Below are positions 50,383 through 58,904 of a DNA stretch of 64,000 nucleotides, piece by piece; position 1 is the stretch's first letter, and every line of letters starts with the position of its first letter. Both the position numbers and the translations under genes were made by a program. Source of the stretch: Herpetosiphonaceae bacterium (GTDB lineage: Bacteria; Chloroflexota; Chloroflexia; Chloroflexales; Herpetosiphonaceae). The notes beneath the pieces are model-generated. The model was not told the origin of the DNA and made no database searches. It worked only from the letters and a program-made list of their open reading frames with translations. The stretch spans positions 1-64,000 of the forward strand of contig JABXJS010000235.1 in the NCBI GenBank assembly GCA_013538855.1, written 5' to 3'.

Positions 50383-50458
50383 TCTGTTCTCCCTGTTCTA
50401 GCTGTTGACAACGAAGAGGAGAGCGAGCAGGGCACAGCAGTCACACCCCAAAAGGACA

Positions 50459-50495
50459 GGCCCTGCTCGGTGACTATACACCGCAGCAGGGCCTA
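50459..50495 (-). terminator. strong two-part hairpin terminator of the SNF2 unit
   Basis: An outer 9-bp stem AGGCCCTGC/GCAGGGCCT and an inner 5-bp stem CGGTG/CACCG (loop ACTATA) stack with small bulges. It lies 39 bp past the SNF2 stop; CCTTTT follows on the minus strand. Confidence 0.78.
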
Positions 50496-50533
50496 AAGTT
50501 CATTGCTGGTGGCAGCGAGATCTGCGTCAGAGG

Positions 50534-52552
50534 CTAGCTGAAGACGCTGTCGAGCAGGGCGGCGCTGGCCTTCTCGGCGGAGGTAAGCTCCTCGTTGGCC
50601 TTGCGCAGCTCATTGCCGAGCGTCTCCATCTGGCGGCGGATATCGCTAAACGAGCTAGCGCTGAGGATGATCTCGGTGATGCGCACGTCGAGGCTCTGCT
50701 GCTCGTGCATGAAGGTCAGCATTGCATCGATCTCGCCGATCACGGTTTGGAACATATCGATCTTACCGGTCAGCACATGCAGGATATACTCCTCGATGGT
50801 GCCGCTCAGCACCAGCGTGCTGATCTCGACCGGGCGCTCCTGGCCATAGCGATGGATGCGGCCAATGCGCTGCTCGATGCGCATCGGGTTCCAGGGCAGG
50901 TCATAGTTGACGAGACGGTGGCAGAACTGGAGGTTTAAGCCCTGGCCGCCGCTTTCGGTGGAGAGCAAGACCTGGGCATCGCCGTCGCGGAAGCGCTCGA
51001 CAGCCAGGCGTTTCTGAATGCCAGTGAGACCGCCGTGGAAGAGCACCGAGGAGATACCGTGATCGGTTAAAAAATTGCGCAGGTACTCCAGCGTGGCGAT
51101 AAACTCGGTGTAGACGATGATCTTGCTATCGTCGGCGGTGATCAGGTGCAGCAGCTTGCGCGCCTTCGAGATCAGGCTCATTGCGGAGGCCTGGTCGAGC
51201 AAGTTAGCCAGCTCGGTGCGATCAGCGGCGGCCAGCTCGCCCATGCGGCCAGACATCGCCCCTTGCAAGGTTTGGCGCACAGCCTGGGGGCTAGAGGTCA
51301 TCTCCTTGAGCAAGATCATCAGCACCAGCACCAGCTTCGGCACGGCCGCGCGCGTGTCGACGCCTTCGAGCACAATATCACCCTCGACATAGCGGGCATA
51401 GATGCGCTTACAGAAGCGCACGACAGCGTCGTGGAAGTGATGCTCCTCATCGGTAAGCGGGATGGCATAGTGGGTGATGCGGCGCGGCGGCAGCTCGGTG
51501 AGCGTATTGGAGCGCCGATTGCGGATCATCACCTCGTTGAGCAAGGCGCGCAGGTGCTCCACGTTGCGGGCGTGGCGGCGATCCTCCATAAAGAGCTTCT
51601 GGAACTGGCGCGGGCCTTTGAGGTGGCCAGGCCGGGCGACGGTGATGAGGTTGTACAGCTCGCGCAGCTCATTCTGCACTGGCGTGGCCGAGAGCAGCAG
51701 ACAGTGCTTGCGGCTCAGATTGAATACAAACTTGAAGCGCCCAGTGCGGTGATTTTTCAAAATGTGGCACTCATCAACGACGACCATATCCCAGGTGCGC
51801 TCCTGGAGGGCCTTACGATACGAGGCTTTGGCGCGATCAATCGAGCCGACGATCAGCTGAAAGGGACCGATATCTTGGGCATCGCCGAGGCGATGAAACT
51901 GCATACCAAACTTATCCTGCATCTCCTCGAGCCACTGATCGACCAGCGGCGCAGGTGTGAGAATCAAGCACGAGCGGATCATCTCGCGCAGGTGGTACTC
52001 CTTGATGATCAGGCCGACCTCGATGGTCTTGCCCAAGCCGACCTCATCGGCCAAGATGGCGTTGCCGTGCATCTCGGCGAGCACGCGGCGCACAGCGCGC
52101 AGCTGATACTCCTTGGCATCGATCGTGGCGTACTCCAGAGCCAGCAGTTGATCGAAGCCGCCCTTGAGCGTGTAGTGCTCGGCCTGCTCGCGCACGGCCC
52201 AGCGGTCGGCGGGGGTGACATAGCCGCTAAGCAAGCGGGTGCGCTCGCCATCGGAGGGTGGGCGGTAGCGCAGCGTTGGCAGGATCGGGGACTGCGCATC
52301 GATGACTGGCGGCGGGCCGATGACGATGACCGGCTTGGGCGCAGCCTTGGCTGTCTCAAACGCCTCCAGCGCGCTACGCAGAGCGGAGCGATCGATCTGA
52401 TCGAGGTGATCGAAGCCGAGCGCCTGCAGATCGGCGCGCACCGTTGTTGGGGGCAGATCATCCAGAGCCATCACCAAATCGCTCAGCGCCACCACGCCGG
52501 AGCCGTGCTCGTCTAGGGCCGCGAGATACGCAGAACGCCGCATCTCATCCAT
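50534..52552 (-). CDS. SNF2-family helicase/translocase
   Basis: The 672-residue protein contains the full SF2 motor: Walker A ILADEVGLGKTIEVG, motif II VVVDECHILKN (DECH), motif III LLLSATPVQNELREL, motif IV-V VLLSTESGGQGLNLQ and motif VI QRIGRIHRYGQ (arginine finger). It resembles RapA/SNF2 translocases that move on duplex DNA. A small N-terminal region (about 1-70; LDEHGSGVVALSDLV has an EF-hand-like pattern) and a helical tail (about 590-672) lie outside the motor. The ATG (52552) overlaps the stop of the TerB_N-like gene (TGATG), so the two are co-translated. Confidence 0.9.
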   Translation of the reverse strand: MDEMRRSAYLAALDEHGSGVVALSDLVMALDDLPPTTVRADLQALGFDHLDQIDRSALRSALEAFETAKAAPKPVIVIGPPPVIDAQSPILPTLRYRPPSDGERTRLLSGYVTPADRWAVREQAEHYTLKGGFDQLLALEYATIDAKEYQLRAVRRVLAEMHGNAILADEVGLGKTIEVGLIIKEYHLREMIRSCLILTPAPLVDQWLEEMQDKFGMQFHRLGDAQDIGPFQLIVGSIDRAKASYRKALQERTWDMVVVDECHILKNHRTGRFKFVFNLSRKHCLLLSATPVQNELRELYNLITVARPGHLKGPRQFQKLFMEDRRHARNVEHLRALLNEVMIRNRRSNTLTELPPRRITHYAIPLTDEEHHFHDAVVRFCKRIYARYVEGDIVLEGVDTRAAVPKLVLVLMILLKEMTSSPQAVRQTLQGAMSGRMGELAAADRTELANLLDQASAMSLISKARKLLHLITADDSKIIVYTEFIATLEYLRNFLTDHGISSVLFHGGLTGIQKRLAVERFRDGDAQVLLSTESGGQGLNLQFCHRLVNYDLPWNPMRIEQRIGRIHRYGQERPVEISTLVLSGTIEEYILHVLTGKIDMFQTVIGEIDAMLTFMHEQQSLDVRITEIILSASSFSDIRRQMETLGNELRKANEELTSAEKASAALLDSVFS

Positions 52553-54720
52553 CAACGTACCTCCTGCTGTTGCTGCCACTCGGCGAGGCGCTGACGCGCC
52601 AAGGGCAGCAGCTGTCTGGCTGGGCTATGGGGATCGAGCTCGTGGGCGCGGCGCAAGAAGGCGACAGCCACCGGCACAGAGCCTTGTTCGAGCGCAGTTA
52701 CGCCATGGGCAAGGTAGACAGGAACAAGCGCCGGATCATCGCCGAGCTGCTGGTAGATCGCCTCGGCGGGGCCATCGCCAGCGTTGAGCGGCAGCTCGGC
52801 CAGCTCGGCGCGCTCGGCGGCCAGCTCATCGGCGGACATGCGGGCGCTGCGCGGGGCGCTGCGGCGCTCGAGCTTGATCTGCTCCTGGGCGGTGCGGGCG
52901 ATATCAGCGGCCACCTGCACGCCGCTCAGACGCCGTCGGCGCACGCGGCCAAAGCCCACAGCGGCAGGCGGCAGATCGAACAGCGGCCCGTTCTGCTCCT
53001 CCCACTCGGCCAGCAGCTGCTCAGCGCGCTCGGCGATCTGGTCGAAGCACTCGCGGGTGAGCGGCGTATGGTTGAAGCCGCCAGAGCGGGCCACATTCAG
53101 CAGGCCGCGGCCAAGCAGCTGGCCGCCGGCCTCCCAGAGCAGGCCGAGCATCCGTGGACCCTGATCGATGCTGAGCGGGATACGATCAAAGGCCGCGGTG
53201 GCGCGCTCGGACTCGCCATGCTCGGCGTAGAGCGGCATCAGGATATCGAGCGCTGCGCGACCGAGCGCCTCGTCGGTGGAGCTTTTGAACAGCGCCTCGA
53301 TCAGGTAGACGAGGTTGGCGTCATCGGCCGCATCGTGCCGCCACAGGGCCACCTGTTTGCGCCGCTCGGCGGCGGAGAGCGCATAGAATGCGGCCTCAAG
53401 GCCCTTGAAGCGCACGGCCTGAAAGATTGGCAGCGGCTCGACATCGACGCCAGCGAGCCAGTCCAGGTACCACCAGCGCTGCTCCGGCGTCAGCGCGCGG
53501 TAGGCAGAGCCGGCATAGGTTGGCGGCGAGGGCACATTCCAGGGCTGGGGCGAGGAGGGCGTCTTGATCGGCAGCTCGCGGATGATCGCCGCGTCCGGGG
53601 CCGGCAGATCACGGCCGCCCCAGGGCGCGTAGGCCTCCCACTCCTCCTTGACAATGGTGATGCCAGGCAGATCGGCGATCTCGCGCAGCTTGGACTGGAG
53701 GGCGCGCTGCTCGGCGGGCTTCATCTCGTAGGGCGCGGAGCCAGAGAGATCGAACTGCACCACATTGCCATCGCCGTTGAGGATGCCGTTGAGCAGCTCC
53801 AGGCCGTCGAGGGGCTGCGCGCCTTTGCGCTGCGAGCGAACTTGCTCTTGGGCGGCAGCGGCGAGGCCACGCAGCAGATCGGCCTCCGCCGAGCGCTCAT
53901 AGACAAACGAACCTTGGGGGATGCCCAAGGTGCGCGCCGTCCACATCACCAGCGTGTCGGAGTAGCCGTGCATGCCGGGAACCACCGGCGTGTGCTCGGC
54001 GAAGGTGCTGATAACCGTCGCGTGGCTTTGCGCGCTCCAGCGGGCGGCGATCTCGACCATGGTGGTTTCGATCTGTTCGCGGCGGCTGCTGAGGCCGCGG
54101 CCAAGCTTAAAATTGCAGCGCGTGGCTAGCTCCAGCAGCAGCTTGCCAGGGGCCTCGCGTGAGGAGAGCGCATAGCAGCGGGCCTGGAGATCGAGGGCCA
54201 GGGCGGCGGTTGGCTCAAACACAGTCAGCCACTCATCGAGCTTGGGCTGACTGGTCGCGGCGTAGGCCAGCGTCAGGATGTTGCCGATGGCCGCCTGGGC
54301 CACCGTGTCGTTCTGGCTGCGCTCGTAGAGATCGCGCAGGGCGACGACGGCCTCGTCGCGGCGTGTGCCGCCAAGCTCGCTGCACAGCGCGTGCAGGCGC
54401 ATGATCCGAAAGAGCTGGATGCCCAGCGCCTCCTCGCCAGCCAGCCAGGCGACGTAGTTCCAGCGCTGCTCTGGCGAGAGCGCGGCGTAGGTTGGCGAGT
54501 AGGTGAAATAGCCACCCCAGGCAGCGGAGGAGCGCTGCGGGCGGGCAACAGGAAAGCGCGTCAGGTCGAGCAGAATGCGCGTATCCAGAATAAACGGGTA
54601 CGGCTGTTTGTTGACATGAACACCAACTTTGGGCGCAATGTAGTCGATCAACTGATCGAACACGGCACGATCGGCGGGCGCGAGTGTTTTTTGTGGAATA
54701 TTGCGAGTGTTTCGAGCCAT
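52552..54720 (-). CDS. large protein with two TerB_N-like motifs, coupled to SNF2 helicase
   Basis: The 722-residue soluble protein has no signal peptide. Two related segments resemble the TerB_N domain core: PTYAALSPEQRWNYVAWLAG near residues 77-96 and AYRALTPEQRWWYLDWLAG near 400-420, each followed by a helical stretch (FRIMRLHALCSEL; FQAVRFKGLEAAFYAL). The rest is helical, rich in Ala, Glu, Leu and Arg, with a TPR-like end (PVAVAFLRRAHELDPHSPAR). TerB_N domains occur in Ter-type stress and phage-response proteins. The tight coupling to a SNF2 motor suggests a two-protein DNA-acting complex. The TerB_N link is from motif pattern only and needs a profile search. An alternative reading is an uncharacterised TPR/helical scaffold. 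Confidence 0.65.
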   Translation of the reverse strand: MARNTRNIPQKTLAPADRAVFDQLIDYIAPKVGVHVNKQPYPFILDTRILLDLTRFPVARPQRSSAAWGGYFTYSPTYAALSPEQRWNYVAWLAGEEALGIQLFRIMRLHALCSELGGTRRDEAVVALRDLYERSQNDTVAQAAIGNILTLAYAATSQPKLDEWLTVFEPTAALALDLQARCYALSSREAPGKLLLELATRCNFKLGRGLSSRREQIETTMVEIAARWSAQSHATVISTFAEHTPVVPGMHGYSDTLVMWTARTLGIPQGSFVYERSAEADLLRGLAAAAQEQVRSQRKGAQPLDGLELLNGILNGDGNVVQFDLSGSAPYEMKPAEQRALQSKLREIADLPGITIVKEEWEAYAPWGGRDLPAPDAAIIRELPIKTPSSPQPWNVPSPPTYAGSAYRALTPEQRWWYLDWLAGVDVEPLPIFQAVRFKGLEAAFYALSAAERRKQVALWRHDAADDANLVYLIEALFKSSTDEALGRAALDILMPLYAEHGESERATAAFDRIPLSIDQGPRMLGLLWEAGGQLLGRGLLNVARSGGFNHTPLTRECFDQIAERAEQLLAEWEEQNGPLFDLPPAAVGFGRVRRRRLSGVQVAADIARTAQEQIKLERRSAPRSARMSADELAAERAELAELPLNAGDGPAEAIYQQLGDDPALVPVYLAHGVTALEQGSVPVAVAFLRRAHELDPHSPARQLLPLARQRLAEWQQQQEVR

Positions 54721-56012: not shown

Positions 56013-58904
56013 CTAGCGCATCAACTGCGGCAGGTAGACCGAGAACTGGCTGATGGTTGCGACAAGGCGCACCTGGTCGATGGCGGTCGAGCCGCTGCTG
56101 GCGGCGGGCCACTGGAGATCGTAGCCCCAGACCTGCGTCAGATCGAGGCCAGCGTTGGGCGCACCGACGGGCTGCTGGTCGGCGCGGGTGAACTGGCTGA
56201 AGGGCAGCGTGATTTTGCGCCAGCCGCTGAAGTCATCGCTGAAGCTAGCGCTAAAGCGCTCGGCGGTGTCGGGGGCCTGATAGAGCCGCACATAGTCGAC
56301 AAGCATCTCCTGTGGGAAGGTGGTGTCGGGGCCAAGCGCGCCGCCAAAGTTGCCGCCAGCGGCCAAATTCAGCAGCATAAAGAAATCGTGATTGTAGACC
56401 CACTCGTTGGGCGCGACATCGGCGGGCGTGGCGCTGTGGAAGAGCGCGCCATCAAAGTACCAGCGAATCAGATTCGGCTGCCACTCGATGCTAAACGTGT
56501 GATAGGCGTCGGCCACCGGCGCGCCAACATCGAAGGCGTTACCAAAGCCAGCGGCCCCAGAGTAGCCTGGCCCGTGGATGGTGCCATAGACCAGGTTGGG
56601 CTGGCGCGAAACGTTCTCCATGATGTCGATCTCGCCGCTCTGCGGCCAGGGCGTTGTGCCAATATTGGAGCCGAGCATCCAGAAGGCCGGCCACAGCCCA
56701 GGCGCGTTGGCTCCACCTGCGCCGCCAGCGGGCACCTTGACGCGCGCCTCCAGCTTGCCATACTCGATATTGAAGCGGTTCTTGCTCAGCAGGCGGGCGG
56801 ATGTGACCGCGCAGGGGCCGTACCAGCAGACCAAGTCGGTGTCTGGAGCAGTGGCACGGGCGCGGATCACCAGGTTGCCCTGACCGTCGGTCGCCACGTT
56901 GGCTGGGTCGCTAGTGTAGTACTCTAGCTCGCTGTTGCCCCAGCCAGGGATGTACTCAAGCAGGCCGTCGCCACGGTCAAAGCCCCAGGTGTTGGGGTTG
57001 GGCGGCGTGCCTGCGGGAGCGTTGAACTCATCGGACCAGACGGGCACCCACTCGGTCGGCGTGAGCGCGGCGGTAGTGGCGGCCATGGTGCTGTGCAGAT
57101 CGAGCGTGACCTGCTGGCCGCTGTTGGAGCCGTAGTACCAGAAGCTCAGGCCAGCGGCAGCGCTCCAGTCCTGGGCCTGGGCGAAGCGGCGTGTGGCCGG
57201 ACCGGACGGCTGGGCGTAGTCAATGCTGAGCACGTGCTCGTAGTCGCCTTGGCCGGGCAGCGCCATAGGTGAGGCAGCGGCTAGCTCGGTGGTGGTGAGG
57301 CTCAGGCCAGCGCTGGCGCTGAGGGGATGGAAGCCGGTAAAGTCGTCGATGAGCAGCGGATCGGGGGACTCATCGTCGTCGATAGCCAAGAGGGCGCGCA
57401 TAAACGAGCCAGGCACCGCGCCCTGTGGGTCGGTCAGGTTGACAACGATGCGGCGCTGCTCCGGCGCGAACTTCGTATCGTCGAGCAGCTGGACGGCGAT
57501 GGTGCTGGAGAGCGTGCCAGGCGCGATGACCAGCGTGCCGCTGACTGGCACATAGTCGCGGTATGGCTCGGCCTTGGCCTCGGCAGTGGCATAGGTGAGT
57601 GTAACGGGCAGTGTCGAGGTGATGTTGAGACTGACCGTCAGCGTGGCGAGCGTGCCCTCGGGGGCGCTGTAGTCGCTCTGGGTGAAGCCTGCGCGCACAA
57701 CCGGCGCGGCCTGACGCACACCATAGAGGCTCACATCGTCGATGAGCAGCGCGCCAGGGCCGGTCGCCAGCGTCAGGTCAAAGAGCCAGGCTTTCATCTG
57801 ATCGAGGGTCAGCTGGTGATCGTTGGGGCCGGGCTGGTAGTCCTGGCGGAACTGGAAGGTGGCGAAGGGCAGCGCGACATAGCGCCAGCCGCTGAAGCTA
57901 TCGCTGAAGCTGGTGTTCCAGCGCTCCGGCTCGGTGCTCACATCGGGGGTGTCTTGTAGCTCGACGCGATAGACCTTGCCGGTGTTCTGGCCGAAGAACC
58001 AGAAGCCGATGCCCTCGGACGTGCTCCAGTCCTGCAGGGCGTCGTAGGCATTGCCAAAGCCGGCGTAGTCGCCAACATTGAAGGCGGCCGAGAGCACGGT
58101 GGTAGCGCTGATCTGGCCAGGCAGCGCCAGGGGATCGGTGGGCGAGATCGTCGGCGTCTGGACGGTGACCGAGGACGCGCCGCCGTTGTACTGGAACCAG
58201 CCAGCGGGCACAGCTGGCTCGAAGTCGGCAAAGGGCGTGGGATTGACGAGCGCCAGATTGTCGATGGCCAGCGCGCCTGCGCCGGAGCCGTTGGCAGGAG
58301 CCAGATCGATCAGCCAGCCCCACATCGCGTCGCCGTTGAAGCCATCGTCGGGCGCGCCGGCGTCCTGGTAGGCCGAGCGGCCAAAGAGCACAAAGGGGAT
58401 GACGAGCTGCTGCCAGCCGCTGGTATCGTCGACGAAGCGATAATCAAAGCGCTCGTAGGCTCCGCTGTCGCCGTTGAGGCGGTTGTCGAAGACCTCGACC
58501 TCATAGGCGTTGCCCGAGGCGTGGCCATAGAACCAGAAGCTGAGGCCGCTGAAGGCGCTCCAATCCTGCGGCTGGCTATACAGATCGCCAAAGCCAGCGT
58601 AGGAGCCAGACGGCAGGTCGAACGTCGCCGACAGCACCGTGTTCGCGCCAAGCTGGCCAGGCAGAGCCAGCGCGGCCTGGGCATCGACGACCTGGAGCGC
58701 AGGCGTGATGCCGGCACCGTTGCCGTTGTACTGGAACCAGCCGGTGGGCAGCCCGGCCTCGAAGTCATTGAGGAGCGGCAGGTCAGAGGGAGCGGCGAAC
58801 TGGTTGGCGGCGGCCGGGGGCGGTCGCAGCAGCCAGCTGGTGTTGATGAGCAGTAGGGCGCAGATGAGCAGCAGGCCGACGCGGGCAAAGCGTGAGGACA
58901 GCAT
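56013..58904 (-). CDS. secreted GH16 beta-glucanase with nested CBM/CIA30-like domains
   Basis: The 963-residue exported enzyme has a signal peptide (about 1-35). Two complete CBM11/CIA30-like domains follow (about 38-215 and 220-395), then a Calx-beta domain (about 405-510). A third CIA30-like domain begins near 518, but the GH16 catalytic domain (about 617-876, start WSDEFN) is inserted within it, and its second half resumes at 880-955 (SASFSDDFSGWRKITLPFSQ). The catalytic motif is GEIDIMEN: E758 nucleophile, D760 and E763 acid/base. GH16 enzymes of this type cleave beta-1,3 or 1,3-1,4 glucans. The C-terminus VYLPQLMR is a recurring Chloroflexota tail. LacI-type operators lie upstream. Confidence 0.92.
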   Translation of the reverse strand: MLSSRFARVGLLLICALLLINTSWLLRPPPAAANQFAAPSDLPLLNDFEAGLPTGWFQYNGNGAGITPALQVVDAQAALALPGQLGANTVLSATFDLPSGSYAGFGDLYSQPQDWSAFSGLSFWFYGHASGNAYEVEVFDNRLNGDSGAYERFDYRFVDDTSGWQQLVIPFVLFGRSAYQDAGAPDDGFNGDAMWGWLIDLAPANGSGAGALAIDNLALVNPTPFADFEPAVPAGWFQYNGGASSVTVQTPTISPTDPLALPGQISATTVLSAAFNVGDYAGFGNAYDALQDWSTSEGIGFWFFGQNTGKVYRVELQDTPDVSTEPERWNTSFSDSFSGWRYVALPFATFQFRQDYQPGPNDHQLTLDQMKAWLFDLTLATGPGALLIDDVSLYGVRQAAPVVRAGFTQSDYSAPEGTLATLTVSLNITSTLPVTLTYATAEAKAEPYRDYVPVSGTLVIAPGTLSSTIAVQLLDDTKFAPEQRRIVVNLTDPQGAVPGSFMRALLAIDDDESPDPLLIDDFTGFHPLSASAGLSLTTTELAAASPMALPGQGDYEHVLSIDYAQPSGPATRRFAQAQDWSAAAGLSFWYYGSNSGQQVTLDLHSTMAATTAALTPTEWVPVWSDEFNAPAGTPPNPNTWGFDRGDGLLEYIPGWGNSELEYYTSDPANVATDGQGNLVIRARATAPDTDLVCWYGPCAVTSARLLSKNRFNIEYGKLEARVKVPAGGAGGANAPGLWPAFWMLGSNIGTTPWPQSGEIDIMENVSRQPNLVYGTIHGPGYSGAAGFGNAFDVGAPVADAYHTFSIEWQPNLIRWYFDGALFHSATPADVAPNEWVYNHDFFMLLNLAAGGNFGGALGPDTTFPQEMLVDYVRLYQAPDTAERFSASFSDDFSGWRKITLPFSQFTRADQQPVGAPNAGLDLTQVWGYDLQWPAASSGSTAIDQVRLVATISQFSVYLPQLMR

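Follow-up and report, generated by a model that had tools for sequence, protein, structure and literature searches.

Most known TerB_N domains belong to Ter-linked and Shango proteins, whose mechanism does not appear to be settled. In a member of the Herpetosiphonaceae, a family of gliding bacteria, a protein with two TerB_N-like motifs is encoded directly beside a motor of the SNF2 family, and this arrangement raises the question whether the pair protects the cell against phages, as a preliminary description of the locus had proposed, or is part of its household machinery. The best reading of our in silico analysis is a lineage-specific, stably kept two-gene operon that is core-like in a single family; the pair resembles everyday cellular machinery for DNA or transcription more than it does a system of defence against phages. 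We found no earlier description of it in the literature; the likeliest survey was not covered, and we do not claim priority.

Organization of the Gene Pair

The stretch of DNA under study comprises 64,000 nucleotides (referred to as the window), and both open reading frames previously described are present on its minus strand. The upstream gene (52552-54720) encodes a protein of 722 residues, which we term the scaffold, and the downstream gene (50534-52552) encodes an SNF2-family motor of 672 residues, counted from the ATG within a TGATG sequence at 52550-52554 (minus strand). As read directly from the sequence, the TGA stop codon of the scaffold gene (52554-52552) overlaps the start codon of the SNF2 gene (52552-52550). 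In other genera of the Herpetosiphonaceae the two genes are spaced by about 17 to 113 nucleotides, so that their adjacency is conserved but their overlap is not. Downstream of the SNF2 gene, a hairpin (50457-50495, minus strand) represents a possible terminator, and folding of the region from 50400 to 50540 yielded a z-score of -3.12. Of the two-part terminator suggested previously, this strong hairpin is present, but the combination of a hairpin and a T-run was missing at this site from the output of a terminator scan. The hairpin is found only once in the genome.

The neighbors of the pair in the window encode two permeases of ABC transporters, a transporter of the EamA type, and a glycosidase of family 16. 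The protein encoded at 56013-58904 in the window is 963 residues long and combines domains of carbohydrate-binding family 11, Calx-beta, and glycosyl hydrolase family 16.

The Scaffold Protein Carries Two Partial TerB_N Motifs

The scaffold matched the Pfam TerB_N profile (PF13208) in two stretches with an E-value of 2.2e-8 and a score of 34.5 bits, compared to a cut-off of 25. Its first motif copy (TYSPTYAALSPEQRWNYVAWLAG; residues 73-95, 54436-54504 on the minus strand) lies within the best of these stretches (residues 57-95) and within a match to the PADLOC profile of SngA (residues 66-137). The second copy (PTYAGSAYRALTPEQRWWYLDWLAG; residues 400-424, 53449-53523 on the minus strand) is backed by the two stretches counted by Pfam, by TerB_N matches at this position in sister genomes, and by the halves of the scaffold, which align with each other around the motif over 42 residues (E = 1e-7). 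The match to TerB_N is partial: the best stretch corresponds to profile positions 40-76 of 207 and does not amount to a full-length domain, and an alignment with full TerB_N proteins (hhalign) gave a probability of 44 and an E-value of 2.3e-4. TerB_N was matched in all eight scaffold homologues (Pfam, E-value of 0.01 or better). These data bear out the TerB_N relationship and the duplicated motif noted in the preliminary description, both of which withstood the profile search; its remark that the usual TerB and TerB_C domains are not recognizable agrees with the lack of any Pfam match to either of them at an E-value of 1.

The C-terminal segment of the scaffold is TPR-like, as judged by weak Pfam TPR matches. 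An alignment-based structural model of the protein was all-helical and of poor quality (pLDDT 53, pTM 0.36), a single-sequence model of residues 1-340 was worse (pLDDT 40), and a Foldseek search of the PDB with the scaffold model retrieved nothing at an E-value of 0.001. The scaffold is thus predicted to be mostly helical, with two degenerate TerB_N-like motifs and a TPR-like C-terminal segment.

The SNF2 Motor Is Complete

The preliminary description of a complete SNF2 motor is corroborated, since both helicase lobes (Pfam SNF2-rel_dom, 1.6e-34; Helicase_C, 7.2e-24) and motifs I, II, III, and VI are present (DEVGLGKT at residue 169, DECH at 260, SATP at 288, and QRIGRIHRYGQ at 561). The best-scoring curated matches of the motor are DISARM DrmD and BREX helicases, with all NCBIfam matches far below their cut-offs. 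DrmD is the best of the latter (257.8 bits, cut-off 610), and the flanks that we examined contain no genes of DISARM. The curated RapA equivalog scored 190.5 bits against a cut-off of 576. In a search of solved structures, RapA aligned along residues 104-601 of the motor, leaving the N-terminal region of RapA uncovered. The window motor has its SNF2 core in common with RapA/HepA and presumably with Bacillus YqhH; in contrast to these proteins, it has a separate putative adaptor gene upstream.

Most Relatives of the Motor Have a Different Partner Gene

Outside the Herpetosiphonaceae, the nearest motors are about 36-42% identical to the window protein and show a scattered distribution, with representatives in 8 of 158 Chloroflexia genomes and in five further genomes of a 400-genome sample of the phylum. 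Of the eight loci in Chloroflexia, seven have a conserved partner of about 345 to 435 residues that directly adjoins the motor; at the eighth (L091), the match ends early and the list of open reading frames contains no partner. Each of the five further loci possesses a relative of this partner, and one of these proteins weakly matched Pfam YqhG (E = 3.2e-4, below the cut-off). The motor-partner gene order of the Chloroflexota loci recurs in six plasmid loci, which come from cyanobacteria and haloarchaea. In a search of 13 sequences with the partner profile, the cyanobacterial proteins matched clearly, with E-values no worse than 1.2e-23, and the matches of the haloarchaeal proteins were weak (2.4e-7 to 2.3e-3). 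Since a conserved partner is found beside nearly all of these relatives, it is common for such a motor to be accompanied by a partner gene, which in the Herpetosiphonaceae encodes a TerB_N-like helical protein.

These operons resemble the window pair in consisting of two adjacent genes, but their partner belongs to another protein family and is encoded downstream of the motor, whereas the scaffold gene lies upstream. Homology between the scaffold and the conserved partner was rejected, as BLASTP gave no match and the scaffold was unlisted in a profile search at an E-value of 10. We detected no YqhG-like partner in the Herpetosiphonaceae. In the motor tree, the Herpetosiphonaceae form a single clade (100/100); given the rooting and the long branches, this clade may or may not nest inside the group with YqhG-like partners. 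The partner may have been swapped in this family or acquired separately; the tree fits either. Some copies of the SNF2 and YqhG-like units (L084-L090, L101-L105, and L109-L114, from Chloroflexota and from cyanobacterial and haloarchaeal plasmids) contain zinc-ribbon-like cysteines, and the units are partly located beside relaxase, integrase, or DUF499/DUF1156 genes.

The Pair Is Stably Kept Within One Family

The scaffold and SNF2 genes are adjacent in eight of nine Herpetosiphonaceae genomes, the ninth being 75% complete. The pair is adjacent in every genome having the two genes, and the expectation that homologues would be found side by side is thereby upheld. Across the family, identity to the window proteins is 60-63% for the scaffold and 74-80% for the motor. 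The flanking genes vary between genera and the pair remains together; Herpetosiphon has riboflavin genes near the pair, as well as a radC-like gene (assigned from the first residues of its reading frame only). Upstream of the pair in Herpetosiphon (L074, 6548-8370), a WXG100 domain is fused to a calpain-type protease, and the next gene encodes a protein of 217 residues that begins like a lipoprotein and has no Pfam match.

A profile built from the eight scaffolds retrieved no match outside the family among 158 Chloroflexia genomes and Herpetosiphonaceae alone among GTDB contigs; in the phylum sample of 400 genomes, its matches were all short and confined to the TPR-like C-terminal end. No scaffold relatives were present in the plasmid, phage, and viral-contig collections searched, and we rejected on these grounds that the scaffold derives from a mobile element or a phage. 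Between two Herpetosiphon genomes, the scaffold had a dN/dS of 0.024 and the motor one of 0.014, compared to 0.016 for RibAB, 0.038 for RadC, and 0.095 for a neighboring lipoprotein-like gene; across six genomes, the values were about 0.009 to 0.040.

A Motor and Its Proposed Adaptor

We propose that the pair consists of a HepA/YqhH-type motor and a family-specific helical adaptor that clear RNA polymerase or other proteins off DNA, a reading to which we assign a probability of roughly 0.45. The SNF2 protein would be a HepA/RapA/YqhH-type motor that acts on double-stranded DNA and is driven by ATP. The helical adaptor encoded upstream, with its two TerB_N-derived motifs and TPR-like repeats, would bind the motor and guide it to the protein that the motor would then displace from DNA; this target would most likely be RNA polymerase that has stalled or another DNA-bound protein. 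We infer the complex of scaffold and motor, its target, and the displacement step, the first of these from the operon structure. YqhH/HepA is listed among the RNA polymerase-interacting translocases of Bacillus subtilis (PMC7385302), and deletion of yqhH in Bacillus thuringiensis lowers survival of UV irradiation (PMC10054049). Together with the alignment of RapA along the motor, these reports point to the clearing of proteins from DNA. A relation of the motor to YqhH is suggested by the weak YqhG match of a partner protein from another genome.

Defence and Repair as Alternative Readings

The pair might instead be a resident two-gene anti-phage system, with the TerB_N-like protein as the sensor of infection and phage DNA as the substrate of the SNF2 motor. 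Such a system would fit the resemblance of the scaffold motif to Shango SngA in all eight members and the top scores of the motor with DISARM and BREX helicases. Some motor relatives on haloarchaeal plasmids adjoin DUF499, DUF1156, and methyltransferase genes, and DUF1156 methyltransferases occur in BREX-related systems (PMC12839542); a defence ancestry of the motor is therefore possible. For the pair itself we consider this function unlikely, because it is present in all near-complete genomes of the family, is flanked by metabolic and transport genes, evolves under constraint similar to that of ribAB, and has a scaffold unmatched in the plasmids, phages, and viral contigs searched; moreover, no nuclease or other effector gene was seen. 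The defence module envisaged at the outset is thus not supported.

Similarly improbable is a motor and adaptor for DNA repair or chromosome maintenance whose site of action would be damaged DNA or the replication fork and not RNA polymerase. The UV sensitivity of the B. thuringiensis yqhH mutant (PMC10054049) and the strong constraint on the pair agree with such a role, but no repair genes adjoin the pair in the window, the radC-like gene is found a few genes away in Herpetosiphon only, and the link to YqhH runs through a partner protein that matches weakly and comes from another genome.

In Shango (SngABC), as in the window, a TerB_N-bearing protein is encoded beside a superfamily-2 helicase. 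Eight genomes of the phylum sample contained TerB_N above the cut-off, and we retrieved seven of the loci with their flanks (L066-L072) as confirmed or candidate Shango-type loci. The three that were scanned with PADLOC for all three proteins (L066, L069, and L072) matched SngA, SngB, and SngC; the others were judged by gene order or partial Pfam scans. Pfam detected TerB_N together with TerB_C in L066, L070, and L071 (in L071 with TerB_C just below the cut-off) and TerB in one of three loci scanned. In L067, L068, and L071, the gene order and the initial residues of the proteins point to ATPase and helicase reading frames similar to those of Shango-type loci, and in L070 to a helicase-like one only. 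Where scanned, these loci have a longer TerB_N match with TerB_C and lie with SngB and SngC, whereas the window pair has a partial TerB_N, twice, an SNF2 motor rather than the SngC DEAD helicase, and no gene for the SngB ATPase beside it, its flanks being EamA and ABC permease genes. The adjoining helicase is the SNF2 protein, and SngC was absent among its best 25 PADLOC matches. Membership in Shango was rejected, with SngB, SngC, TerB, and TerB_C missing at the window pair. That the pair is a divergent Shango system in which SngB and SngC have disappeared and another helicase has been recruited is highly improbable given these absences, the different type of motor, and the short part of TerB_N that is in common, even though all eight members match the SngA profile (best E-value, 2e-11).

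Significance of a Putative TerB_N-Like Adaptor

With regard to the proposed motor and adaptor, it is conceivable, if rather doubtful, that the TerB_N-derived double module stands where related SNF2 motors have a YqhG-like adaptor, in a core-genome complex that serves transcription or the maintenance of DNA. If true, TerB_N motifs would have a household role outside of stress and defence systems. Part of TerB_N, present twice beside a DNA motor, would be a minimal conserved setting in which the role of TerB_N is separable from TerB and TerB_C. The recurrent pattern of an SNF2 protein plus a partner suggests that a dedicated adaptor is a common companion of these motors.
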